From Oscillospiraceae bacterium (lineage in GTDB: Bacteria > Bacillota > Clostridia > Oscillospirales > Ruminococcaceae): a DNA stretch of 64,000 nucleotides. The DNA is taken from NCBI GenBank assembly GCA_018110925.1, contig JAGAZJ010000016.1:1-64000 (forward strand). Reading direction: 5' to 3'. The translations under genes and the position numbers were made by a program. Of this stretch, positions 27,910 through 41,389 are shown piece after piece. Under the pieces are notes generated by a model. That model saw nothing but the letters and a program-made list of their open reading frames with translations. It was not told where the DNA came from and ran no database searches. Position 1 is the first letter of the stretch; each line of letters opens with the position of its first letter.

Positions 27910-30900
27910 TCAGTCCTCTGTATCATCGAAGAAGCCGAGACCGCTGAGGGCAGACACAAATCTGCCGATATAGTCCCATGTGGTCACAGGCCAGCTGAAT
28001 CCCAGACGATACAGCACCTGCATGGTGTATTCGCATTTTCTCGGCAGCCTGATGCTGCGTCTCTCACCGGACGAGGGCATATATGCCATGATGCTCGTGA
28101 GCATTGATGCCTTATCGGGGTCGTTCTGAGCCTGTGCGAAGGCTTTGGCAAATTCATCAGCCTCTGCGTATCGTATGGTATAACCAAGTGCGGTAAGCTC
28201 TCTGAACACGTTCTCCATCATGATCTTCTGATTGTTGAAAGCGTGGAAAACCGTGCAGTCGTCGGGTGTGCCCGAAAGCAGGACTATCGCCCTTGCAACA
28301 GCATCTATGGGCGAGAACTCCATCGTGGAATCAAGTATGTCATAGGATGCACAGCCCAGCATCGCATATGCCCTGAGCCTGCCCATAGAGGAGTTGGTGC
28401 CCGAATTTATCTGGAACTCACCGTCGCTGTAACGGGCGGCAAGATTCCCCAGGCGGACGATCTTTCCCCGAAGTCCCTTGTCCGCTATCGCTTCAAGGAC
28501 CGCCCTTTCAGCCAGGAACTTGGAGCGGACATATTTGTTAGTAAGTAGCTGTCCCATATACAGTGTCTGTTCTGACGGCTCAAAGCCCTCGGGTATATCA
28601 TCCTCATACGCTTCGTTGAGCACGCTCATGGTGGATGTCTGCACCAGTGCCGCACCAGTTCTCAGGCAGAAATCTATAAGATTCTGCGCTCCGCCCACGT
28701 TCACATCCTCTATCACCGTGTCGGCGGCAAAGTGCTTGACAACAGCCGCACAGTTGATCACCGTGTCGATGTGTTCACCGTCAAGGGATGCAAGTACGGC
28801 AGGGTCTGTGACATCGCCGTCAACTATGATGAGCCTGTCACCGATAAGGTCGGATATATGGGTGTCGAAGTAGTAATAATACATACGGGGCAGGCGCATC
28901 TGAGCGGCGGTATCCCTGTGTGAACGGAGCAGGCAGTATATTTTGCCGTCACTGTTGTCGATAAGCTCATGGAGTATGTGTATTCCCAGATACCCCACTG
29001 CACCTGTCAGAAGCACATTGCCGAGCGAACGGCACTCACCGCTGCGGAAGCTGTCCAGTGTATTCCTTGCGAGGATCTCCTCTATTGCAGTATAGTCATA
29101 GTCCGTTATGCCGCTGTCCTCACTTGGTACAGCCTCGCCCTTATCCCCCGAAAGAGCCGCAAGAGCCTTGGGCGTGGGGTTGTCAAACACATCGCTGAAT
29201 GCGATCCTTATACCATACTTGCCCGCTTCTATCACGATATTTGTCACCAGCAGGGATGTGCCGCCCAGATCAAAGAAGTTCTCTGCCGCACCCACGTTGT
29301 CAACGTGCAGTACCTTGGAGAATATGTCGCAGAATATCTGTTCTGTCTTTGTGGATGCGGCTCCTCCTCTGTCTCCGCGGTAAAGCTCGGGCAGGGGCAG
29401 GCTCCTCAGATCCAGCTTGCCGTTGGGGGTCATGGGCATCTCATCCAGCTGCATATATGCAGTGGGCACCATATAATTGGTGAGCGTCCTGCCCAGTTCC
29501 TTTCTCAGCTCTCCTATATCGACCTTATGGTCTGCGGTGAACCATGCACAGAGGTGCTCTATGCCGTTTATCTTCTCTATCTTGACGGCTGTGCGGCTGA
29601 TGCCCTCAACAGCGCCCAGGACAGCATCCACCTCATCGAGCTCTATGCGCAGGCCTCTCAGCTTTATCTGATTGTCCTTTCTGCCGAGTATCTCCACATA
29701 GCCCTCTGGCGTCCATCTTGCAAAGTCGCCCGACTTGTAGACACGTCCACCGCCGTATTCGATGAATCTTTCCGCTGTCATTTCGGGCAGACCGTTATAT
29801 CCTGCGGCAACGCCCACGCCGCCTATGTACAGTTCACCGACCAGTCCCGCAGGGAGTTCGTTGCCGTCGCTGTCTACGATATATTCCACCACGCCGGGAA
29901 GCGGCCGTCCTGTGTTGACAAGATCCTGTGCCGAAAGCTCTGCGGTGTTGCTGGAAACCGTTATTTCCGTAGGTCCATAGGTGTTAAATATGAGCCTGTC
30001 GGTCTTTTTAAGTGCAGCAAGGAGCTGCTCGGGGTACTTTTCACCGCCGCAAATCACAACCTTGCAGTTCTCAAATGCCGCGGAAAATTCGGGGGAGGCA
30101 AGGAGCATCAGCAGTCTTGAAGGTGTTGAGCCGAAAACATCCGTATCAGTCCGCTTCATCCTCTCAGCCAGCTTTGCCGCATCATTTATCTCATCATCCG
30201 CCGCTACCGACAGGGTGAGCCCGTTGAACAGAGGCGCCGCCCATTCCTTGACGGAGAAGTCAAAGGAGAACGTGGTTATGGCGGTTAGGACATGGCCTCT
30301 TTCGGTCATGCCGTTTACAAGTATATTGCCGGGGGTATTGGTGACATAGTTGACCGCACCCCTGTGTCTGAGCATAACGCCCTTGGGCTTGCCCGTTGAA
30401 CCTGATGTGTAGATAAGATATGCAAGATCATCCTGACTAATCTTCACATCGGGTTTGGAAGTATTCTGCTCGGTGAGCAGCACTTCGGCATCTGCGGCAG
30501 GTCTGTCTGTAAATCTTCCCAGCCTGTCTGCTGTGGTCATCACGAGAGATGCACCGGAGTCATCTATGATGTGCTTTATCCTCTCCACGGGATAGTTGGG
30601 GTCACAGGGGATATATGCCGCTCCTGCTTTGAGCACCCCGAAGAGAGAGAAGAACATAAGCGCCGTGCGCGGAAGGAGAAGGACCACCCTGTCGCCTTTT
30701 TTCACTCCTCTTGCGATAAGGGCATTGGCGACCCTGTTAGCATTCTCGTTGAGCTGTCTGTATGTGTATGTGCCGTCTGCGGCAATGATCGCAGTCTTGT
30801 CGGGTATTTCTGCCGCAAAGCGCTCCATACCCGAATGAAAGAGCACATCCCCGGGGATATCCGGGTCAACGGGTCTCTTTCTGAAACCGTTCAGCACCGC

Positions 30901-33900
30901 CTCTCTCCCGGCATCGAGCAGGCTTATGCCCCTGAGCTTCTCATCACCCCTGCGGCTGAATTTGTCGGTCACTATGACGTAGGAACGCAGAAATTCCTTT
31001 ATGAAACCTTCGGAGTACACACCGTCGTTATATTCCGCCTCTATCTGCGCCCTGCCGTCCCTGTCGATTATCCTTACGGCAAGGCCGAACTTGGTCTCTG
31101 CCTGTGCAAGGCTCTGTATGCCGGTCAGATGAGGTATATCCTGCTTTTCAAGTATCCCTCTCTGATACTCATACATGATGTTTATGCCGTATCCCCATTT
31201 TGCCGCAATATTTGCAAAGGGATAATTCTCATGCTCTATTGCGCTGTCAAAGCCTTTTGCGACCTCTCTGACAAAATCATCGGTGCTGCCGTGGGAAAGC
31301 TCCGCCGCAAGGGGCACTGTGTTGACGAACATACCATAGGTATCCGCAAAGCGTGTATCTGCTCTGCCGCTGGATATGGTGGATATATACACCCTGTCGG
31401 ATGCGGTCATCCTTGCGAGCGTGCAGTCAAGAGAAGCAAGCATAAGTGCGGCTTCTGTCACGCCCGTTCGGATGCAGGCTCGCTTTACTCTTGCCTCATC
31501 GTATTCGGTGTAGGCAAAGCACTTCCTGCCTTTTTCCCTGCCGCTCACATCCCCCGTCAGCTTGGTGGGTGACTCAAAGTTCTCAAGAAGTCCTCTGAAA
31601 TAACGCTCGTACTCCTCGCCTGCTTCGCCTGCAAAAAGAGCCTTCTGCTCTCTTGCATAGGTGAAGTATGATGCGCTCTCTGCTTCGGGCGCAGAGTCTG
31701 TCTTCAGCGCAGTCTCCAGATCTCTGAGGAACAGGCTCATGGAGAACCCGTCAAATATAAGATGATGCAGGTCGCACAGGAGCCTTACCGCCTTCTCCGT
31801 CCTTACCACGGAGAACCTGAACAGCGGTGCTTTGTCAAGGCGGAATGGAGCGACGGATCTTGAACGGTAGAACTCATACTTATCCTCTGTCAGCTCCGTC
31901 ACCTTTATATCCGGGGCACTAACTTCATCCCTGACAGCCATCACCTTGTCATCGACTATATCAAAATGTACGAACAGAGAGGGATGCGCCATAATAACAC
32001 GCTCCACAGCCTTTACAAGCCTGTCCGTATCCATGCCGCCGTCAAAGGTAAGCTCGGAGGGGATATTGTAGACAGTGCTGTCGGGAGACTTCATGCACTC
32101 GATATACACGCCTGTCTGAGCGGCGCTCAGCTCCGCCGAAGCGGCTTCTTCGGTGATATTCTCCGCCTTGCTGCCGTTCATCCATCCTCTTATGATAAGA
32201 TCCTCTATCCCTGCTATGGTGATATCCTTCATTCCCTTTACGGGGATATTCACGCCGAATCTCTTGCTCATGCCCGTGGACAGACGTATCATGCTGAGAC
32301 TGTTGAAGCCCAGATATTCAAGAGGAGTATTCAAGGGAGGTCTGTCCATATTGACAGCCGAACCTATCATCTTTCTCAGTTCTGCTTCGAGTATATTGTC
32401 GGTATGTCCGTTGTCTTCCTCTGACGCCGTCATCACAGGCTCGGGAAGTGCCTTTCTGTTGACCTTGCCGTTCTGATTGAGAGGTATGCTGTCTATCTGC
32501 ATTATGGATGCAGGCACCATATAGGGCGGCTTTCTGTCCCTTATAAAGTCTGCTATCGCCTTGGGGTCTATCTTTTCATCGCTGACAAAGTATGCGGCAA
32601 CAGCTTTGCCATCAGCCCCCAGATCCCTTGCCACTACCGCAACATTTTTCACACCGCTGTATTCTCTTATGACAGTCTCTATCTCGCTGAGTTCTATACG
32701 GAAGCCGTGTATCTTCACCTGTCCGTCACGTCTGCCGATGAATTCTATCTTGCCGTCTGTTCTGAAACGAACTATGTCCCCTGTCTTATAGGCAGATGAA
32801 AATTCGCCTCCGTCAAAGGGATCGTTTATAAACATCTCCGCCGTCTTATCGGGACGGTTAAGGTAGCCTCCGCCTATCTGCGGACCTGCAAGTATAAGCT
32901 CGCCCAGAGCGCCGGGAGGCACCCTGTGACCGAAAGGATCCACCACATAGGCCTTCATGTTGTCAAGAGGTCTGCCTATGGGAATATTGTCCTCTTTCTT
33001 TGTCACCTGTTCTATCGTGGAAAAAATGGTACATTCCGTGGGACCGTATCCGTTATACAGTTTGAAGCCCTTGGGAGGATCCATTGATGCCAGCTTTTCA
33101 CCGCCCACGGAGACCGCACGCAAATACGGGTTATCCATCTCTGCGGCAAACTGTCTTCCTACCTGGGTGGTCATAAAGCTGAGAGTTACCCTGTTCTTGA
33201 TGTAGTACTCATTCAGCCTGTTCAGATCGAGCCTCATATCCTCTGCCACTATGACCACGGCAGCACCCGAACAGAGGGCAGGGTACATATCCATCATGCA
33301 GGCATCAAAGCCATAGGATGCGTACTGGCTCACCCTGTCGCTTTCGGTCAGCTCATAGAATTTTCTGTACCAGTTTATAAAACACACGAGATTGGCATGA
33401 GTGAGCTTTACGCCCTTGGGCACGCCTGTGCTGCCGGATGTGTAGAGAAGTATGAATGTATCCTCGGGAGAGCATACATTGACGGGCTTTTCCTCGGGCA
33501 GTCTGTCCGTATCATCGGCGGATAGTCTTTCACCCTCAAATTCCGTTATTATATCCGCAAGCTCCGGTGCGGTTATGAGCATACGGGCAGAAGCATCCTT
33601 GACCATGAAGTTAAGACGTTCGGGAGGATAGGTAGGGTCAAGGGGCTGATATGCACAGCCTGCCTTCAATGCGCCAAGGGATGCTGTCACCTGATATATG
33701 CCCTTGGGGATGAGGACAGATACCACATCTCCCCGTCCGATGCCCCTGCTCTCTATGTATGCGGCGATACTGTCGGATCGTCTGTCCACCTCCGCATAGG
33801 TAAGAGATGTGTCACCGAATATGACTGCGGTATTGTCGGGATATCTTTCGGCAGCTCTCCTGAACAGCGACACCACCGTCTGTGAGCGGTCATAGTCCGT

Positions 33901-36819
33901 TTCTTTCCTGTTCCATTCCCTGAGAGTTTCCAGCTCCTTATACCCTGCAAGGGATATTTCACCTATCTTTTCGGCGGACAGCATCCTTGCCAGTACATTC
34001 TCAAAGCTGTTGACAAATATATCTACGAACTCAGCGGAATACAGGTCGCTCCTGTACTCCACACGGATGCTGTATACACCGCCCTTTTTGTACATCTGCA
34101 CAGCAAACTGCTCACCTGTGGCATTGTCCATGAGGGGGATGCATCTTACAGGTTCTCCCGCAAAGCCGCCCACATCAAGGAGATCGCCCTGATATACGAA
34201 CATCAGCCCGCTTGTGATGCCCGTCTTTGCCGCAAGGTCTGCAAAGGGATATATGTCATTGTTCATACAGCCAAGCATCTGCTCCTTCTGCGCAGACAGG
34301 TACTCCCTTATGTCTGTATCCTTGTCAAAGCGGGAATACACGGGCAGAGTCTTGACAAGCATCGCCACCGTCCCTGCGGTGCGCAGGGAATCCCTGCCGT
34401 TGTATATGGTGGTGAAGAGTGCCTCGTTCATGCCTGCATACAGCCCGATGCACACGCCGAAGGCTGCTGTGGTGTAAATATTCTCGGTCACGCCGTATCT
34501 GCGGCACAGATCCTCCGCCTCGGAAGTGTCAATGGCAAGCTCCCTTTCTCTCACCCCGAAAGCCGTTATATCCTCATGCCTGTCGGGTATGGGCATACTG
34601 TCCGTCTCTGTTCCGCCGAAGGTATCAAGATACCATTTCTCAGCCGATCCATAGTCTGTCTTTCTGCGCTCCGCCTCGTCCTCCGCCGCTTCAAAGCCGC
34701 TGTAAGTCTCCTTTTCAAGTTTCTCTCCACGGTATGCCTTTTCCAGATCCTTCATGATGATGAGCATGGATGAGCCGTCAAAGATGATATGATGCATATC
34801 CATAAAGATATGTCTGCCCTCATCCGTCTCAAATATGCGTATTCGGAAAAGTCTGTCTGAAAGCAGTCTGAACGGCTGCATAAGACCCGGAAGGAGCGCT
34901 CTGAACTCGCTCTCGCTCATTCTCTCCACGGTCTGGGAATAGGGGGCATCATCATTTCTTACCTGTACGGGGTCTCCGTTTTCATCCGTTTTCAGCTTTA
35001 ACTTTATGAAGGGATGAGCCTCCACTACCGCTTCACAGGCATGACAGAGCCTCTCGGTGTCTATGCCGTCACCGAGCTGTAAAAGGATGGGGTTGTTATA
35101 TGCTGCTTCACCGTCCCTGTTCACAGACTCGATATATATGCCGAGCTGTGAGGACGACAGGGGATACTCCTGCTTTATGACACGCTCCCTGACAGTGCCC
35201 CTCTTCACGCACTCTGCGGCGATGGCTCTCGGCGTCTTTGCGGAGTATATGATCTTGCTGGTAAGGTCAAGCTCGGGGCATGACACAGCAAGCGTCATAA
35301 CGCTTATACTGCTACCGCCCATATCAAAGAAATCGTCATCGATGCCGACACACTCTGCACCGAGAACCTTCTCAAAGGCACGACAAAGCACTGCCTCGGT
35401 CTCGTTTTCAGGTGGAGCATATTCGGCTCTCTTTGTCATTATGTCGGGCTCGGGCAGGTTCTTCCTGTCTATCTTCCCGTTCTGATTAAGAGGAAATCTG
35501 TCCATATGCGTATAGAACGCAGGTATCATATATGCAGGCAGTTTCTCGGACAGCTTTTCTCTGATGAAGCTGTCCTCCGTCTTTTCACCTGTGTAGTAGG
35601 CGCAGAGGACGATGCGGCCGCCTGCTCCCTTTACCGCCTTTACCACAGCCATATCAATTCCGTCAATGTCCATCATGCGGTTCTCGATCTCACCGGGCTC
35701 TACACGCTGGCCGTTTATCTTCACCATCCAGTCCTTGCGGTTTATGTAAACAAGGTTGCCGTCGGGCAGCTTCCTCATTATATCTCCTGTATGGAGCCAA
35801 CCGCCCCTGAACAGCTTCGCTGTTGCTTCGGGATCCTTGAAATACCCCATGGTAAATGGTCCCTTAACGCAGAGCTCGCCCTCTTCACCCTCGGACACAT
35901 CATTGCCGTCCTCGTCCAGTATCGTCCATTCCGTACCCGCCTTGGGTATGCCCACAGGGGTCTCCTCATAGGGTCTGTCAACAAGGAAGGAGCAGATCGT
36001 GCCCATAGTCTCGCTCATGCCGTAGTGATTGAACAGCTTATAACCCTCACGGCTGCACTGACCTGTAAGCCTCTCACTGCCTGTCATCACCGCCCTGAGA
36101 GCATCGGATCTGCTGTGGAAATTTGCCAGCACAGAGGGGCTTATAAATCCGAAGGTTATGCCGTTTTTCTCATAGTAGTCCTCCAGCTTCGCCACATCAT
36201 GCATGGTCTCCGATGAGATAAGATGCACACATCCGCCATATGTCAGGATCTTGTATGAAAGCACGGATGCCACAAAATACATAGGTGCCCCCAAAGCCCA
36301 CTGCTGACCCGCTGAATAGCTTGCGGGGTCACCCACCGCTCTGTTTGCAAGTAGCCCCATAAAGCTGTGAAGTATGCCCTTGGGCATACCTGTAGAGCCG
36401 GACGTATAGATCAGAAACGCCGCTTCATCATCGGATGTATCGGGGAAAAGTGATATATCGGCGTGCTCTGTTCCCATGATCTCATCAATAGCCGCCTCAT
36501 CTATGATAAAGGGGGCATCACAGTTGGTGCTGATGTATCTTATCCTCTCCTGCGGGAAAGATGTGCCCATAGGCACAGCAACATGGCCTGAGAGCCATAT
36601 CCCGAATACAGCCGCCGCATACTCCGCAGAGGAATCCAGGCACACGGGGATGAATGAACGTTCATCCAGTTCCTTTGCATATATCCAGGATGCCGTCCTT
36701 ACAGCAAGGTCACGTATTGTGCTGTAATCGGTCATTCTCGTGCCGTTTCTGTCCACAACTGCGGCCGCATCCCCGCAGCTCTCTGCTGAATCAAGGAACA
36801 GCTTTACATAATCGTTCAT
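27910..36819 (-). CDS. Nonribosomal peptide synthetase, A-T-C-A-T-C-A-T-R
   Basis: 2969 residues. Domains: A1 1-455; carrier T1 465-540 (GGSS, Ser503); C1 552-965 (HHIIFDG at 676); A2 975-1460; T2 1475-1545 (FNSLS, Ser1507); C2 1563-1975 (HHLIFDG at 1685); A3 1990-2475; T3 2490-2560 (GGTS, Ser2522); terminal reductase 2595-2969 with TGAVGYLG and YVRSK. The reductase should release the chain as an aldehyde. A1 has FVAS where FDAS is usual, so the Asp that holds the alpha-amine is missing and an acid without alpha-amine is likely loaded. A2 specificity residues read DAMFSGGIF (aliphatic-like); A3 reads DFKGIGTVS, with a Lys that could pair with an acidic side chain. RBS AAAGGGAGAG; 21 bases after the MATE gene. 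Confidence 0.95.
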   Translation of the reverse strand: MNDYVKLFLDSAESCGDAAAVVDRNGTRMTDYSTIRDLAVRTASWIYAKELDERSFIPVCLDSSAEYAAAVFGIWLSGHVAVPMGTSFPQERIRYISTNCDAPFIIDEAAIDEIMGTEHADISLFPDTSDDEAAFLIYTSGSTGMPKGILHSFMGLLANRAVGDPASYSAGQQWALGAPMYFVASVLSYKILTYGGCVHLISSETMHDVAKLEDYYEKNGITFGFISPSVLANFHSRSDALRAVMTGSERLTGQCSREGYKLFNHYGMSETMGTICSFLVDRPYEETPVGIPKAGTEWTILDEDGNDVSEGEEGELCVKGPFTMGYFKDPEATAKLFRGGWLHTGDIMRKLPDGNLVYINRKDWMVKINGQRVEPGEIENRMMDIDGIDMAVVKAVKGAGGRIVLCAYYTGEKTEDSFIREKLSEKLPAYMIPAFYTHMDRFPLNQNGKIDRKNLPEPDIMTKRAEYAPPENETEAVLCRAFEKVLGAECVGIDDDFFDMGGSSISVMTLAVSCPELDLTSKIIYSAKTPRAIAAECVKRGTVRERVIKQEYPLSSSQLGIYIESVNRDGEAAYNNPILLQLGDGIDTERLCHACEAVVEAHPFIKLKLKTDENGDPVQVRNDDAPYSQTVERMSESEFRALLPGLMQPFRLLSDRLFRIRIFETDEGRHIFMDMHHIIFDGSSMLIIMKDLEKAYRGEKLEKETYSGFEAAEDEAERRKTDYGSAEKWYLDTFGGTETDSMPIPDRHEDITAFGVRERELAIDTSEAEDLCRRYGVTENIYTTAAFGVCIGLYAGMNEALFTTIYNGRDSLRTAGTVAMLVKTLPVYSRFDKDTDIREYLSAQKEQMLGCMNNDIYPFADLAAKTGITSGLMFVYQGDLLDVGGFAGEPVRCIPLMDNATGEQFAVQMYKKGGVYSIRVEYRSDLYSAEFVDIFVNSFENVLARMLSAEKIGEISLAGYKELETLREWNRKETDYDRSQTVVSLFRRAAERYPDNTAVIFGDTSLTYAEVDRRSDSIAAYIESRGIGRGDVVSVLIPKGIYQVTASLGALKAGCAYQPLDPTYPPERLNFMVKDASARMLITAPELADIITEFEGERLSADDTDRLPEEKPVNVCSPEDTFILLYTSGSTGVPKGVKLTHANLVCFINWYRKFYELTESDRVSQYASYGFDACMMDMYPALCSGAAVVIVAEDMRLDLNRLNEYYIKNRVTLSFMTTQVGRQFAAEMDNPYLRAVSVGGEKLASMDPPKGFKLYNGYGPTECTIFSTIEQVTKKEDNIPIGRPLDNMKAYVVDPFGHRVPPGALGELILAGPQIGGGYLNRPDKTAEMFINDPFDGGEFSSAYKTGDIVRFRTDGKIEFIGRRDGQVKIHGFRIELSEIETVIREYSGVKNVAVVARDLGADGKAVAAYFVSDEKIDPKAIADFIRDRKPPYMVPASIMQIDSIPLNQNGKVNRKALPEPVMTASEEDNGHTDNILEAELRKMIGSAVNMDRPPLNTPLEYLGFNSLSMIRLSTGMSKRFGVNIPVKGMKDITIAGIEDLIIRGWMNGSKAENITEEAASAELSAAQTGVYIECMKSPDSTVYNIPSELTFDGGMDTDRLVKAVERVIMAHPSLFVHFDIVDDKVMAVRDEVSAPDIKVTELTEDKYEFYRSRSVAPFRLDKAPLFRFSVVRTEKAVRLLCDLHHLIFDGFSMSLFLRDLETALKTDSAPEAESASYFTYAREQKALFAGEAGEEYERYFRGLLENFESPTKLTGDVSGREKGRKCFAYTEYDEARVKRACIRTGVTEAALMLASLDCTLARMTASDRVYISTISSGRADTRFADTYGMFVNTVPLAAELSHGSTDDFVREVAKGFDSAIEHENYPFANIAAKWGYGINIMYEYQRGILEKQDIPHLTGIQSLAQAETKFGLAVRIIDRDGRAQIEAEYNDGVYSEGFIKEFLRSYVIVTDKFSRRGDEKLRGISLLDAGREAVLNGFRKRPVDPDIPGDVLFHSGMERFAAEIPDKTAIIAADGTYTYRQLNENANRVANALIARGVKKGDRVVLLLPRTALMFFSLFGVLKAGAAYIPCDPNYPVERIKHIIDDSGASLVMTTADRLGRFTDRPAADAEVLLTEQNTSKPDVKISQDDLAYLIYTSGSTGKPKGVMLRHRGAVNYVTNTPGNILVNGMTERGHVLTAITTFSFDFSVKEWAAPLFNGLTLSVAADDEINDAAKLAERMKRTDTDVFGSTPSRLLMLLASPEFSAAFENCKVVICGGEKYPEQLLAALKKTDRLIFNTYGPTEITVSSNTAELSAQDLVNTGRPLPGVVEYIVDSDGNELPAGLVGELYIGGVGVAAGYNGLPEMTAERFIEYGGGRVYKSGDFARWTPEGYVEILGRKDNQIKLRGLRIELDEVDAVLGAVEGISRTAVKIEKINGIEHLCAWFTADHKVDIGELRKELGRTLTNYMVPTAYMQLDEMPMTPNGKLDLRSLPLPELYRGDRGGAASTKTEQIFCDIFSKVLHVDNVGAAENFFDLGGTSLLVTNIVIEAGKYGIRIAFSDVFDNPTPKALAALSGDKGEAVPSEDSGITDYDYTAIEEILARNTLDSFRSGECRSLGNVLLTGAVGYLGIHILHELIDNSDGKIYCLLRSHRDTAAQMRLPRMYYYYFDTHISDLIGDRLIIVDGDVTDPAVLASLDGEHIDTVINCAAVVKHFAADTVIEDVNVGGAQNLIDFCLRTGAALVQTSTMSVLNEAYEDDIPEGFEPSEQTLYMGQLLTNKYVRSKFLAERAVLEAIADKGLRGKIVRLGNLAARYSDGEFQINSGTNSSMGRLRAYAMLGCASYDILDSTMEFSPIDAVARAIVLLSGTPDDCTVFHAFNNQKIMMENVFRELTALGYTIRYAEADEFAKAFAQAQNDPDKASMLTSIMAYMPSSGERRSIRLPRKCEYTMQVLYRLGFSWPVTTWDYIGRFVSALSGLGFFDDTED

Positions 36820-36840
36820 TTTGTGTCTCTCCCTTTCGGT

Positions 36841-38589
36841 TTATCTAATATCAACGATAGTATTATTGAGTTCAAGGACTCTCATATAGCTTATCTTGAA
36901 CGGCATTTTCTTTACTATCCCCAGACCTCCGGGATAGTCTCCGCTGTTTTCAGGTTCATAGGATACGGGGTCAAAGGCTGTGCCGTTGTCCCTGAACCTC
37001 AGGGTCATATTGCCCCCCGCCTTTGCGATGGATATATCTATATGATCCCCGTCCGCGCTGTCATATCCATATTTTCCAATATTCGCCGCTATCTCCTCCA
37101 CGATAAATCTGATCTCAGCGGCTTCCTCATCGGATATGCTTTCTTTTCGGCAGTATTCCATGATCTCCCTTGCCGCATCCACTGCTTCCGGATTACTTCC
37201 GCGTATCGTAAGCTCCAGAGTGCTGCCGTTGTTTTCAGGTATCGCCATAAAGCCCTTGTACTGTATCCTGCCTGCTTTATGCATGATGAGCCTTACGATA
37301 TTGAGGATGCCAAAGGTCAGCAGTTCGCTCACCACAACAGCTCCGAAAAGACCGCTGAAACCGAACCTGCTCATCCCGTACACCATCAGGGGTACTTTGA
37401 TAATGAGCAGTTCCAGGGCACAGCTTGCGGTCGAAAGTGCGGTGAGCCCGATGGTGCGGTAATAGTTCTGTGAAACAGCATTGAGCGTGAAAGCTACGAA
37501 ACTAAGAGAGAATATGCGCAGACCCGTCATAAGATCAGGCATCACCTCGTTGACATCAAAGCCGTACATCCTGACGATGACCTGCGGCACCGCAAGGAAT
37601 GCCGCCGTTATGACAGCACACGATATGAGAGCTGCGCTGAGTACCCGTCTGAACACGGATCTCATCCCGAAGAAGTCACCCTCCCCGTACAGCACTCCCC
37701 CGACAGTTGCAATGACAGACGATATGCCGTTCAAGAACATCTGGACAATATGCAGGGTGTTGTTTGCAACGGAGTAAGCGGAAAAATATCCGCTCCCAAG
37801 TGCGTGCAGCACCGCCGCATTAAGCACCGACATACCGATGACCGTCATAACAAGATTTGTGAGATCGGGGAGACCTCTTTTGAGCGCACTGCCTATCATG
37901 GGCTTTGCTTCTTTCATTCCCCTGAGCACAGGCGTTAACACCCTGTCGGCGCTTTTGGCATATACGGGGATGAATATGAGACCTGCCATGACATATCCTA
38001 TGACCGTTGAGAGCGCCGCCCCCCTTATGCCGAGAGGGGTGAACCTTACCAGAAACCAGTCGAAGGCGAGATTTATCACATTTGCTGATATATTCACCTT
38101 TGCCGCCAGTCCGGGATGATTATCAACATTCATGAAGAACGCCGTCTCTATGACAATGCTGACTAAGGGCATACCGAAGGAGTATATGAAGGCAATGTCC
38201 GTGATCATACTTTTTAGCTGTCCCTCAGCACCGGTGAGCCCCACAAAAAAAGGGACGATCACAGGCGAAAGAATAAGGAAGAGCAGAGTATATACAAATC
38301 CTGCCGCAAGGCAGAAACCCATCACCCTGCCTGCGCCACGGGCATCTCTTTTGCCCAGCAGCACTGCCGCAGTTACCGCCCCCCCGGATGACAGGAGTAT
38401 CGCCGCCGCCTGAAGTATGTACACATACGGCAATGATGCATTAACAGCGGAATTGCCTATGCTGCCTATCAGATTGCCCACTATCATGGCATCCACCACA
38501 TTGCCGAGCTGCAGTGCAACAGTGGTGAGTATACCTGTGAGCATATACTTGTACACCCTGCCCTTTATCAGGCTGTCATTTCTTTTCAT
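36841..38589 (-). CDS. MATE-family exporter fused to an RsbW-like ATPase domain
   Basis: 582 residues. Residues 1-440 are a twelve-helix MATE transporter (starts LTGILTTVALQLGNVVDAMIVG; second half begins RGLPDLTNLVMTVIGMS), which would export drugs or peptides driven by Na+ or H+. Residues about 455-582 are a GHKL ATPase fold of the anti-sigma-kinase type: FIVEEIAANIGKYGY (N box), RFRDNGTAFDP (G1) and GGLGIVKKM (G2). Such kinases phosphorylate STAS proteins, and a STAS gene lies 22 bases upstream. The NRPS follows 21 bases downstream, so it probably exports its product. The ribosome site (GGTGAT) is weak. The fusion is the oddity. Confidence 0.92.
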   Translation of the reverse strand: MKRNDSLIKGRVYKYMLTGILTTVALQLGNVVDAMIVGNLIGSIGNSAVNASLPYVYILQAAAILLSSGGAVTAAVLLGKRDARGAGRVMGFCLAAGFVYTLLFLILSPVIVPFFVGLTGAEGQLKSMITDIAFIYSFGMPLVSIVIETAFFMNVDNHPGLAAKVNISANVINLAFDWFLVRFTPLGIRGAALSTVIGYVMAGLIFIPVYAKSADRVLTPVLRGMKEAKPMIGSALKRGLPDLTNLVMTVIGMSVLNAAVLHALGSGYFSAYSVANNTLHIVQMFLNGISSVIATVGGVLYGEGDFFGMRSVFRRVLSAALISCAVITAAFLAVPQVIVRMYGFDVNEVMPDLMTGLRIFSLSFVAFTLNAVSQNYYRTIGLTALSTASCALELLIIKVPLMVYGMSRFGFSGLFGAVVVSELLTFGILNIVRLIMHKAGRIQYKGFMAIPENNGSTLELTIRGSNPEAVDAAREIMEYCRKESISDEEAAEIRFIVEEIAANIGKYGYDSADGDHIDISIAKAGGNMTLRFRDNGTAFDPVSYEPENSGDYPGGLGIVKKMPFKISYMRVLELNNTIVDIR

Positions 38590-38611
38590 AATATCACCAA
38601 AGGCTCACATA

Positions 38612-38917
38612 TCAGTTGTCGGCACCGATAAGGAAGTCAGCCAGACCGCTGAGATCGAGTATCTCCCTGACACTGCTCTTTATGTTAAGCATTTGCATCG
38701 AGCCCTGCTTGTTCATCATCTTGCGGAACTTGACGAAGGTGCGAAGCCCCGCAGAGGAGATGTAGTCAAGTTCCTCAAGGTCGATCACAAGCTCTGTGAT
38801 GCCTTCAAAACACTTCATTATATCTGCTTCAAGCTCGGGAGCCGTAGTCCTGTCAAGGTCGCCCCCGATACGGACGGTAAGTCTTGAGCCTTCTTTTTTC
38901 TTTGATATATTGAACAT
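38612..38917 (-). CDS. STAS-domain anti-anti-sigma-factor-like protein
   Basis: 101 residues, one STAS domain. The stretch LVIDLEELDYISSAGLRTFV has the phosphorylation-site serine (Ser55, in the S-x-G-L position of RsbV/SpoIIAA). In partner switching the dephosphorylated form binds an RsbW-type kinase and is itself its substrate. Here the kinase domains are on the MATE protein and on the phosphatase. Strong AAGGAGG site. First gene of the STAS-MATE-NRPS operon, with two promoter candidates upstream. Confidence 0.93.
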   Translation of the reverse strand: MFNISKKKEGSRLTVRIGGDLDRTTAPELEADIMKCFEGITELVIDLEELDYISSAGLRTFVKFRKMMNKQGSMQMLNIKSSVREILDLSGLADFLIGADN

Positions 38918-38958
38918 ATCAGGTTCCTCCTTTTTGTTAATGAACTATAAATTATTTA

Positions 38959-38987
38959 ATTATATCATATAAGATATTAAAAATCAA
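38959..38987 (-). promoter_or_regulatory. Proximal sigma-A-like promoter of the STAS-MATE-NRPS operon
   Basis: Minus strand TTGATT (38982-38987), 17 bases, TATAAT (38959-38964), about 40 bases before the STAS start. Confidence 0.7.
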
Positions 38988-39062
38988 TAGTTTTGACATA
39001 ACTTAGCACTAAATTTTAACAATAATGAAAGCGACTGCGGGTATTTCCCACCGATCACTTGT

Positions 39063-39097
39063 ATTATATCATGCAGACCTTTGCAACTTCTTTGCAA
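39063..39097 (-). promoter_or_regulatory. Distal promoter with tandem TTGCAAAG operator, copy 1
   Basis: Minus strand: TTGCAAAG (39090-39097), three bases, TTGCAAAG (39079-39086), ten bases, TATAAT (39063-39068) within TGATATAAT. The same layout occurs at 41355-41389 before the phosphatase gene. The 11-base phasing places both half-sites on one DNA face, where a regulator would replace a poor -35 box. Confidence 0.6.
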
Positions 39098-39193
39098 GCA
39101 GCCGGAAAATATTTTTTCATAATAGTTTCTGAAAGATGCAACAAGAGCCAAAGCCCTTGCGGATATGCATGGGAACTCCGGCTCTTGTTCGGA

Positions 39194-41164
39194 TCAGCTC
39201 TTACTGCCAGTGCTGACAGAGAGCGTCAGGATATTTGCGTCATCATATCTGTAGGATATGCTGTCGGTGAGCTCCTTCGTAAGATATATGCCCAGACCGC
39301 CGATCCTGATATCATCCAAATCGTCGGGTATATCAGGGTCGCTCTTCCCCGTAGGGTCAAAGGGCTGACCGTGGTCCGTAAAGGTGATATTCAAAAGACC
39401 TGTCTCCTTATCCTCCGATACCGTCACAGTGACCGTGCCGGCTTTATCCGGATAGGCATAGTCAACGATATTGCCGAAGATCTCCTCCGATGCAAGTCTC
39501 AGTGATGATATGCGGCTCTTGTCAACGCCTGCCCTTTCCGCCTTGTGCATAACAAGCTCCGTCACGGCAGAAAGCTCATCATCTGATGCATTGACAGTTA
39601 TCGTGTCCGTACCGTTATATTTGAAGCAGATCATGCATATGTCGTCAAACTGGTCTGCACTGCCGGAGAACCGCTTTATATCAGTGCGCATGGAGCTGAC
39701 GATACTCTCCGGGTCGGTGCTGCCGCACCTGTCAATAGCCTTTAGTATACCGTCTTCTCCGAAGCGTCTCCCTGCGGAATCCAAAGCATCAGTAACGCCG
39801 TCTGTATACACGAATATCATATCACCGGGTTCAAGTGCATATTCGCGCTGTGTGTATCCTGCATCAGGGGTAACGGCGGCAGGCATCATATGCGGATATC
39901 TGCAGATCTCCCAACTGCCGTTGTGCCTTACAAGAGGATTTTCATGCCCTGCATTGACCACGGAGCATTTTCCCGTGATAAGGTCTATGACTGCGAGCCA
40001 TACCGTAACGAACATTCCTGCCTCGTTCCTGTCGGAAAGCTGCTCGTTGACCTTTCTCATAACTGTCTCGGGTCTCTCGTTCTGTTTCATCTCGCTCTTT
40101 ATCAGCGAACGTGCCGCCATCATGAACATTGCCGCAGGTATGCCTTTATCGGATACATCTGCAATGACAAGGCCGATGTGGTGACCGTCGATCATAAAGC
40201 AGTCGTAAAAGTCGCCGCCCACGCCTCTGGCAGGCTCTATATAGGCGCTCATGTCAAACTCGTTCCTGCCCGATATCTCCTTTTGTATGTCGGGGAGCTG
40301 GCTCAGCTGAATTTTGGTGCAGACATCCATCTCCGCCTTTTCACGCTCCAACATTGATGCATAGTTCATCTTTTCTCTGTGATAACGTCTGTATATCATG
40401 ATTATGAAAAGATCGATAAGCAGCAGCAATATCACATTGGCGATACTGATACCGACGGAGTCACGGGTTATCATCTTTTCCACATCTGAGTAATCCCTTC
40501 TCCATATTATTACAGCCTTTACCTCGCCGTCATGTATTATGGGGATATAGTAAACAAGATAGGTCACCCTGTCCTCTGCCGAGTAATACGTCTCCATGAC
40601 ACCGTCGCCATCCGGGGCATCAATCATATCTTTGAGCGCCCGGTGCTCATCAAATTCGATATGTATGGTCTTATCAGGCAGATGATAGTTGTTACTGCTG
40701 TCATCATCAGCTTTGAAAAGGACACGGGCTGTGTCCCCCTCCATGCTGATACAGCTCAGTTCTTCTGTATTGAATGAAGAATAGAGCATATCAAAGCCAT
40801 AGGCTATGCGGGTGTAGCAGATGTATGAGTATGCCTCCTGCTCCTCCTTTGACATAGCTCTCACTTCTTCCTCCGTGACCAGCGGAAGATCAAGAATGTT
40901 TATCCATGAATACTTCATTTCATCGACGGGCTCCGATACGCCTCCTGTTTCAAGCCAGTGGTCTATGAGCCATCCGTATGCCTCATAGGAGGTTATACGG
41001 TTCTTTGCGTATACAGAAAGATTGTCAGCTTCCGTCTGCACCTCATCCATGTGGGATCTGATGTGGATATATCTTATGAACAAAGTGCTGATGGCGCTTA
41101 TCAGAAAAAACATCGCCACAAATACTAGATATATCTTGCAGGATCTCTTTTTGATGTTATTCAT
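39194..41164 (-). CDS. Membrane RsbU/SpoIIE-type phosphatase with C-terminal RsbW-like domain
   Basis: 656 residues. Membrane helix at about 8-28, an extracytoplasmic sensor region (30-235) and a second helix (236-258). A SpoIIE/PP2C phosphatase domain (about 290-515) has GGDFYDCF, ADVSDKGIPAAMFM and FVYTDGVTDA. The last 135 residues are a GHKL ATPase domain with LRLASEEIFGNIVDYAY, FTDHGQPFDP and GGLGIYL. Likely senses an outside signal and dephosphorylates the STAS protein encoded just downstream, while its own ATPase domain could also act on it. It has its own promoters, one sharing an operator with the NRPS operon. Confidence 0.9.
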   Translation of the reverse strand: MNNIKKRSCKIYLVFVAMFFLISAISTLFIRYIHIRSHMDEVQTEADNLSVYAKNRITSYEAYGWLIDHWLETGGVSEPVDEMKYSWINILDLPLVTEEEVRAMSKEEQEAYSYICYTRIAYGFDMLYSSFNTEELSCISMEGDTARVLFKADDDSSNNYHLPDKTIHIEFDEHRALKDMIDAPDGDGVMETYYSAEDRVTYLVYYIPIIHDGEVKAVIIWRRDYSDVEKMITRDSVGISIANVILLLLIDLFIIMIYRRYHREKMNYASMLEREKAEMDVCTKIQLSQLPDIQKEISGRNEFDMSAYIEPARGVGGDFYDCFMIDGHHIGLVIADVSDKGIPAAMFMMAARSLIKSEMKQNERPETVMRKVNEQLSDRNEAGMFVTVWLAVIDLITGKCSVVNAGHENPLVRHNGSWEICRYPHMMPAAVTPDAGYTQREYALEPGDMIFVYTDGVTDALDSAGRRFGEDGILKAIDRCGSTDPESIVSSMRTDIKRFSGSADQFDDICMICFKYNGTDTITVNASDDELSAVTELVMHKAERAGVDKSRISSLRLASEEIFGNIVDYAYPDKAGTVTVTVSEDKETGLLNITFTDHGQPFDPTGKSDPDIPDDLDDIRIGGLGIYLTKELTDSISYRYDDANILTLSVSTGSKS

Positions 41165-41354: not shown

Positions 41355-41389
41355 ATTATATCACTGTCTTCTTTGCAAGACCTTTGCAA
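41355..41389 (-). promoter_or_regulatory. Distal promoter with tandem TTGCAAAG operator, copy 2
   Basis: Minus strand: TTGCAAAG (41382-41389), three bases, TTGCAAAG (41371-41378), ten bases, TATAAT (41355-41360) within TGATATAAT. Identical spacing to copy 1 while the sequence between differs. Confidence 0.6.

Follow-up and report, generated by a model that had tools for sequence, protein, structure and literature searches.

A partner-switching module beside a GHKL-bearing MATE exporter and a peptide synthetase in an Oscillospiraceae bacterium, and its possible role in export

The DNA examined here, called the window, comprises positions 1 to 64,000 of contig JAGAZJ010000016.1 of an Oscillospiraceae bacterium (assembly GCA_018110925.1). 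The host genome, G000 in our numbering, has 1.67 Mb and is 69% complete; the window sits on its contig C12. Other genomes of the family are labelled Gnnn and fetched loci Lnnn. Four minus-strand open reading frames, P0001 to P0004, span 27910-41164 (Table 1). Pfam placed SpoIIE (1.9e-48) and HATPase_c_2 (2.9e-20) domains in P0001, STAS (4.4e-17) in P0002, MatE (3.1e-18) and HATPase_c_2 (5.3e-12) in P0003, and three AMP-binding, two Condensation, three PP-binding and one NAD_binding_4 (terminal reductase) domain in P0004. This confirmed the four leftward genes of the original prediction, namely a membrane phosphatase with a GHKL domain, a STAS protein, an exporter with a GHKL domain and a nonribosomal peptide synthetase (NRPS). 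Partner-switch proteins are best known as controls of sigma factors. The original prediction held that the switch at this locus may act instead on the exporter or on production itself, and overall it was partly supported.

The intergenic gaps in the STAS-MATE-NRPS run were only 22 and 21 bp, which suggests that these three genes form one operon. The phosphatase gene lies 276 bp upstream of the run and a copy of one promoter motif precedes each unit, so that the phosphatase alone and STAS-MATE-NRPS are probably two transcription units. A single operon of all four genes was rejected in view of the second motif, before STAS.

Table 1. Genes, domains and promoter motifs at the locus, in positions of the window
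Feature	Position	Strand	Basis
P0001, membrane SpoIIE/RsbU-type PP2C phosphatase with C-terminal GHKL domain, 656 aa	39194..41164	-	Pfam
SpoIIE phosphatase domain of P0001, residues 327-516	39617..40186	-	Pfam
GHKL (HATPase_c_2) domain of P0001	39218..39589	-	Pfam
P0002, STAS protein, 101 aa	38612..38917	-	Pfam, alignment
Codon of STAS Ser55, predicted phosphorylation site	38753..38755	-	alignment
P0003, MATE exporter with C-terminal GHKL domain, 582 aa	36841..38589	-	Pfam
Exporter GHKL domain, SpoIIAB/RsbW-like; E498, N503, D534, G536 intact	36916..37194	-	Pfam, alignment, PDB profile
P0004, NRPS A-T-C-A-T-C-A-T-R, 2969 aa, thioester reductase at end	27910..36819	-	Pfam
First adenylation domain, lacking the amino-acid-binding Asp; probable acyl-loading domain	35440..36819	-	alignment
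Terminal reductase domain (NAD_binding_4)	28285..29010	-	Pfam
Promoter motif before STAS, TTGCAAA-N4-TTGCAAA-N11-TATAAT, 0 mismatches	39063..39097	-	
Promoter motif before phosphatase gene, TTGCAAA-N4-TTGCAAA-N11-TATAAT, 0 mismatches	41355..41389	-	

The motifs expected of a working switch are intact in the phosphatase, the STAS protein and the exporter. The phosphatase aspartates D318, D321, D336, D455, D507 and D508 of P0001, as well as the E/N/D/G residues of its GHKL domain, were invariant among six aligned sequences, two of them partial. Pfam gave no family for residues 1-270, and some 200 residues flanked by two hydrophobic stretches were read from the sequence as a putative extracytoplasmic sensor. 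The Pfam scan of P0001 for a receiver domain gave no Response_reg match. Ser55 of the STAS protein, which had been named as the acceptor position, aligns with the serine of the D-S-T-G motif of RsbV (structure 6m36), and a serine occupied this position in 42 of 42 aligned STAS rows, which include P0002, L036 and L205 (the same protein twice), and L217 (STAS on the opposite strand). In the exporter, residues E498, E499, N503, D534, G536, R570 and N575 were identical in all 56 rows of an alignment of P0003 with 55 homologues, 52 of which have an NRPS within 3 kb. Among other MATE-GHKL rows, a few of them also NRPS-linked, N503 was kept in 31 of 56 and G536 in 15 of 56. A profile of the exporter domain matched the VraS sensor first in the PDB (E 0.0007), followed by SpoIIAB in four rows (E 0.0019-0.0023); the lower rows were at chance level, and since resolvases (E 0.037-0.13) matched there beside RsbW (0.065), only the first rows count. 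The N and G1 boxes of GHKL proteins are present in both the exporter and the phosphatase, and serine kinase activity is predicted for them.

The company kept by such exporters was compared with that of plain MATE genes. A SpoIIE, STAS or GHKL gene lay within 6 kb in 38 of 57 MATE-GHKL loci of all kinds (56 fetched loci and the window) versus 1 of 22 plain-MATE control loci (Fisher p 4e-7; the hidden Markov models (HMMs) used were built from loci including L052 and L053, both later among the 22 controls). The loci were chosen from the best matches listed: besides the window and G180, 40 of the 49 rows reaching the GHKL end were used and 7 (one partial) were left out, and 16 further loci came from a second best-match list. 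Pfam families of 135 same-strand neighbours of MATE-GHKL genes (up to two genes per side, up to 1200 aa) included SpoIIE (27), STAS (18) and HATPase_c_2 (14), together with GH3, formyltransferase and APH (4 each) and LPG_synthase_C (3). The 45 neighbours of plain-MATE controls (up to three genes, up to 900 aa) were led by MarR, and SpoIIE, STAS and HATPase_c_2 were absent there from the families with at least two members. These families are the best 25 of 97 for MATE-GHKL and the best 25 of 86 for the controls, with single-member families partly unseen. From these counts, GHKL-bearing MATE exporters tend to accompany partner-switch genes, and they likewise tend to accompany enzymes joining acyl or amino-acid groups.

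With five NRPS-linked exporters as query, a search of named genomes produced 79 loci (L205-L283). Among those of L205-L260 with a full-length exporter, 52 of 55 had NRPS domains within 3 kb, which is not an unbiased rate because the query was built from NRPS-linked exporters; the partial L229 was left out, and two of the three exporters with no nearby NRPS sit on contigs of less than 4 kb. The loci are not all independent, as L205, L212, L220 and L251 duplicate contigs of G090, G071, G177 and G180, respectively, and L235, L236 and L238 are near-identical in appearance. Under a stricter rule, applied to 53 anchored loci of L205-L260, an NRPS adjoined the exporter in 49, SpoIIE and/or STAS in 21, and both SpoIIE and STAS in nine (L205, L226, L228, L231, L237, L240, L249, L257 and L258). 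The whole gene set is present in L205 (G090). In L228 (Ruminococcus sp. zg-924), L231 and L237 the SpoIIE-GHKL, STAS, NRPS and MATE-GHKL genes stand in another order, so the set persists through rearrangement. The linkage in relatives that had been predicted is thus conserved in part, in a patchy manner.

The absence of a nearby sigma factor was borne out within the sequence searched. None of the five Sigma70_r2 genes of the genome lies on this contig, and six query frames taken from their loci (one antisense) gave no match in L205-L283 and none in the 57 fusion stretches, a search in which distant types could be missed. The two matches that the sigma search returned were both in control loci. 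Among the Pfam families with at least two members in the 135 MATE-GHKL neighbours there was no sigma family. A nearby sigma factor was accordingly rejected as the target, none having been found in the fetched neighbourhoods. Recurrence of parts of the gene set in related bacteria, where no sigma factor was found close by, suggests that the switch may control the making or exporting of the compound itself.

The compound was approached through the domains of P0004. Alignment showed a V in the first adenylation domain (A1) in place of the conserved Asp of amino-acid-activating domains. This Asp is missing from A1 in 19 of 23 NRPSs that begin with an A domain and is kept in the other four (L226, L244, L250 and L258). 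Relatives with a starter condensation domain instead of A1-C have the order C-A-C-A-R with two amino-acid modules (e.g. L228). P0004 therefore appears better read as an acyl-loading A-T followed by two amino-acid modules and a reductase. The three-module NRPS of the original prediction was corrected in this sense, and three amino-acid modules were rejected for this locus, since A1 lacks the Asp. The specificity residues read from the alignment were DAMFSGGIF for A2 and DFKGIGTVS for A3, at positions of the PheA numbering, and allow no confident prediction of the A3 side chain. The terminal reductase translation contains YVRSK, presumably the YxxxK motif. Because A1 lacks the amino-acid-binding Asp, P0004 probably makes an N-acyl dipeptide aldehyde, a candidate protease inhibitor. 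In the accessible parts of two reports, the products of gut NRPS clusters of this kind are protease-inhibiting N-acylated dipeptide aldehydes, ruminopeptin of Ruminococcus among them (PMC8518294, PMC12327764). The compound class is reported to inhibit host proteases. The gut dipeptide aldehyde clusters (Guo et al., BGC0001686), including that for ruminopeptin of Ruminococcus bromii, share with P0004 the two amino-acid modules and the terminal reductase. They differ in starting with a condensation domain, whereas the starter here is an A domain lacking the Asp, and the same parts of those reports do not mention a linked switch (PMC8518294, PMC12327764).

The promoter motif in front of the two units connects them with genes just outside the window. 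Allowing up to three mismatches, its repeat part matched the window 4 times, where 0.24 matches were expected. At the same threshold, the full motif had 11, 10, 11 and 11 matches in G000, G090, G177 and G071, with none for the reversed control; the highest other counts across 197 family genomes were 11 in G069 (control 3) and 8 each in G063 and G114 (control 1 each). A matrix was trained on 28 of the 29 regulon sites with up to two mismatches outside NRPS loci, leaving out one identical copy and all three-mismatch sites. It scored the promoters of the NRPS loci at 50.4 and 38.9 bits in the window, 37.2 in G090 and 37.2 in G177, and the best score in the background (1.02 Mb of unrelated loci) was 8.8 bits. 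Directly past the window end, in L084 (G000:C12:64001-84000), seven minus-strand sites were found at up to three mismatches. Four lie 61-81 bp before genes of proteins of about 200-260 aa, one lies before the gene of an 855 aa repeat protein, and two lie before neither; the motif of the NRPS locus thus precedes four of the six paralogous genes of this cluster and the 855 aa gene. A histidine kinase and a response regulator adjoin the cluster, at L084:14173-16390. The response regulator is 93-95% identical in the two same-genus genomes, G090 and G177, and in the 197 genomes orthologues of at least 64% identity were confined to G000, G090, G177 and G071, the next being at 51%.

In the PDB, the C-terminal domain of this regulator matched EmbR best (E 0.0045), the OmpR-type 1p2f next (0.022) and AfsR third (0.024); with 1p2f placed between the two SARP matches, this ranking draws no clean line between SARP and OmpR types. 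Trans_reg_C was found in 9 of 14 members at E up to 1 (best 4.8e-05), and no Pfam match to a BTAD domain was obtained in the regulator. With EmbR and AfsR among its matches the C-terminal domain looks SARP-like, and the regulator differs from these SARP regulators in having a receiver domain in front and no BTAD match. SARP operators, as far as the accessible text of PMC10972967 goes, consist of heptamer repeats with 4-15 nt spacers that overlap the -35 region, with classical units of 11 bp. Both promoters here likewise carry direct heptamer repeats with a 4-nt spacer at the -35 region. Judged from these features, both units are probably transcribed under a separate two-component regulon, and the L084 regulator and the TTGCAAA operator form a candidate pairing. 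The direct-repeat operator, which also marks a regulon next to a two-component system, is new relative to the original prediction. It provides a direct means of following when such a cluster is active.

By analogy with known partner switches, we propose with moderate confidence that a phospho-switch of the SypE/SypA kind adjusts output of the peptide aldehyde after transcription and needs no sigma factor for this. The locus would make and export a reactive N-acyl dipeptide aldehyde, a probable protease inhibitor. The two-component system with its SARP-like response regulator would bind the TTGCAAA repeats before both units and turn transcription on. When there is no signal, the GHKL kinase activity of the phosphatase protein and/or of the exporter would phosphorylate STAS at Ser55. 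A signal sensed by the membrane phosphatase would cause this phosphate to be removed, and the free STAS protein would bind the GHKL domain of the exporter, a plausible candidate target, and so gate export. If this is true, not only transcription but also a fast phosphorylation switch would gate the release of a host-active metabolite.

Several observations weigh against this proposal, and the strongest, directed at the exporter GHKL domain as a necessary target, comes from the other 23 of the 79 loci (L261-L283), which carry Bacteroidales-type titles except L274 (uncultured bacterium). NRPS domains lie near the MATE gene in 17 of these 23. L264 and L273 have an NRPS and a MATE with GHKL, but L263, L271, L274, L275 and L279 combine a GHKL gene, STAS and an NRPS of the order C-A-C-A-R with a MATE that has no GHKL; SpoIIE is visible with the GHKL gene in four of these five, the GHKL gene lying at the stretch edge. 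The switch can therefore accompany an NRPS pathway even though the exporter has no partner domain. The exporter GHKL domain is thus a candidate target and is weakened as the sole possible one. Linkage is also incomplete among closer relatives: 32 of the 53 related exporter loci had no adjoining phosphatase or STAS, several of them cut by contig ends, and many exporters are thus found with no switch linked to them. In the same-genus genome G177 (L220), which is 97% complete, neither phosphatase nor STAS was found beside the exporter, and two STAS matches occur elsewhere. STAS and sigma genes lie elsewhere in the incomplete host genome too, which makes a remote target possible. As to transcription, the operator matrix found nothing above 5 bits in the NRPS loci of G071 and G180 and reached 5.7 in G055, and among L206-L260 only L220 exceeded 12 bits. 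Transcriptional control would thus hold for the genus only, because the operator scores high just in the NRPS loci of its three genomes. The predicted action on exporter or production accordingly kept its support from the intact motifs and the MATE-GHKL linkage, but since the Bacteroidales switch goes with a GHKL-free MATE, it may act on production or elsewhere.

The Bacteroidales loci could also be explained by a STAS protein that is itself the output, acting on the NRPS, the MATE body or another protein, with the exporter GHKL domain as an extra docking site or kinase. A precedent is SypA, whose action lies downstream of SypE and whose target is unknown, as far as PMC10120452 could be consulted. 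We consider this explanation rather unlikely, as the catalytic residues of the GHKL domain are invariant across NRPS-type exporters and switch genes are over-represented beside exporters that carry GHKL. The flow of information could also be reversed, the exporter GHKL kinase reporting load or substrate to the phosphatase or a regulator by phosphorylating STAS. The kinase residues are indeed intact even where STAS is not linked, and STAS, MATE and NRPS are packed as an operon; but no downstream regulator is encoded within the locus, and the phosphatase seems to have a membrane sensor-like region of its own, two points that make a reversed flow improbable. More doubtful still is ordinary partner switching, in which STAS and GHKL would act on a sigma factor from another part of the genome, with the NRPS/MATE neighbourhood being incidental. 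The five sigma genes and the incompleteness of the genome leave room for it, yet none of those genes is on this contig, the sigma queries found nothing in L205-L283 or the 57 fusion stretches (within the reach of that search), and the linkage recurs in different gene orders. That the exporter GHKL domain senses nucleotides or regulates the MATE by itself, with phosphatase and STAS as a separate module, would suit the many exporter loci with no adjoining switch gene, but is highly improbable given the enrichment of 38 of 57 versus 1 of 22.

For the proposed gating of export, the nearest working model is SypE/SypA of Vibrio fischeri. In the accessible parts of two papers, kinase and phosphatase domains in one protein control the STAS protein SypA, and no role as an anti-sigma antagonist is given there for SypA (PMC10120452, PMC8256260). 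The same pairing of kinase and phosphatase domains in one protein with a STAS protein is seen in P0001 and P0002. SypE, however, is a response regulator with a receiver domain, while P0001 looks like a membrane sensor, and here a second GHKL domain is located on the exporter as a candidate target. These loci therefore offer a physically linked candidate, an exporter with an RsbW-like domain, where the target of the SypA type is unknown. RsbU/RsbV/RsbW and SpoIIE/SpoIIAA/SpoIIAB of Bacillus subtilis are alike in the PP2C phosphatase, the STAS protein with the aligned serine and the SpoIIAB/RsbW-like GHKL domain; they differ in that no linked sigma factor was found here and that GHKL is fused to a phosphatase and to a transporter. 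The SulP/SLC26 transporters are likewise coupled to a STAS-type module, according to the part of PMC8256260 that was accessible, but in them the fused part is STAS itself, whereas at this locus STAS is a free protein and its GHKL partner is the fused part. No description of a MATE-GHKL switch of this kind was found among the titles and abstract starts listed in searches of open-licence papers.

More tentatively, transporter-directed partner switching could be a general signalling class in gut anaerobes, in which the signal gates export itself and not transcription. An RsbW-like GHKL domain on exporters (MATE, rarely an SDF symporter) would receive a phospho-regulated STAS protein, and each module would be paired with an enzyme making the exported acyl/amino-acid conjugate (NRPS, GH3, formyltransferase, LPG_synthase_C or ATP-grasp).

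Further proteins related to the switch were seen in passing. A GHKL domain is fused to an SDF sodium:dicarboxylate symporter at L226:8223-9878, beside a MATE-GHKL gene and an NRPS. Such fusions are rare: the matches from 291 genomes of the class contained two more of full length. Both score weakly for GHKL, and the 14-15 kb fetched around them held no switch genes. STAS and GHKL occur in single-chain proteins near MATE-GHKL genes at L132:9809-11404, L145:10951-12540, L144:7229-8815 and L139:3865-5484. In L132 and L145, the two that were scanned with Pfam, an APH-type kinase domain lies between STAS and GHKL. The host genome has a second STAS and GHKL gene group at G000:C17:39894-43182, a possible source of cross-talk. 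It also has another MATE whose C-terminal part matches GHKL weakly (34.7 bits with our own HMM; no Pfam call), in the region L084:391-5040 (G000:C12:64391-69040), flanked by an ATP-grasp/GNAT protein and an LPG_synthase_C protein. The cluster at L084:5470-13995 comprises the six secreted-looking paralogues and the 855 aa protein, which has Flg_new repeats. The paralogues have, by reading, a signal-peptide-like start and conserved YGR, GTDFP and EWKP motifs; the four of six that were scanned matched no Pfam family. Finally, a gene of 433-447 aa occurs in the set of L263, L271, L274, L275 and L279. Two of its products were scanned and both matched Alginate_exp, one above the cut-off, so that for these two an Alginate_exp-like outer-membrane protein accompanies the dipeptide-aldehyde-like NRPS clusters of Bacteroidales type.

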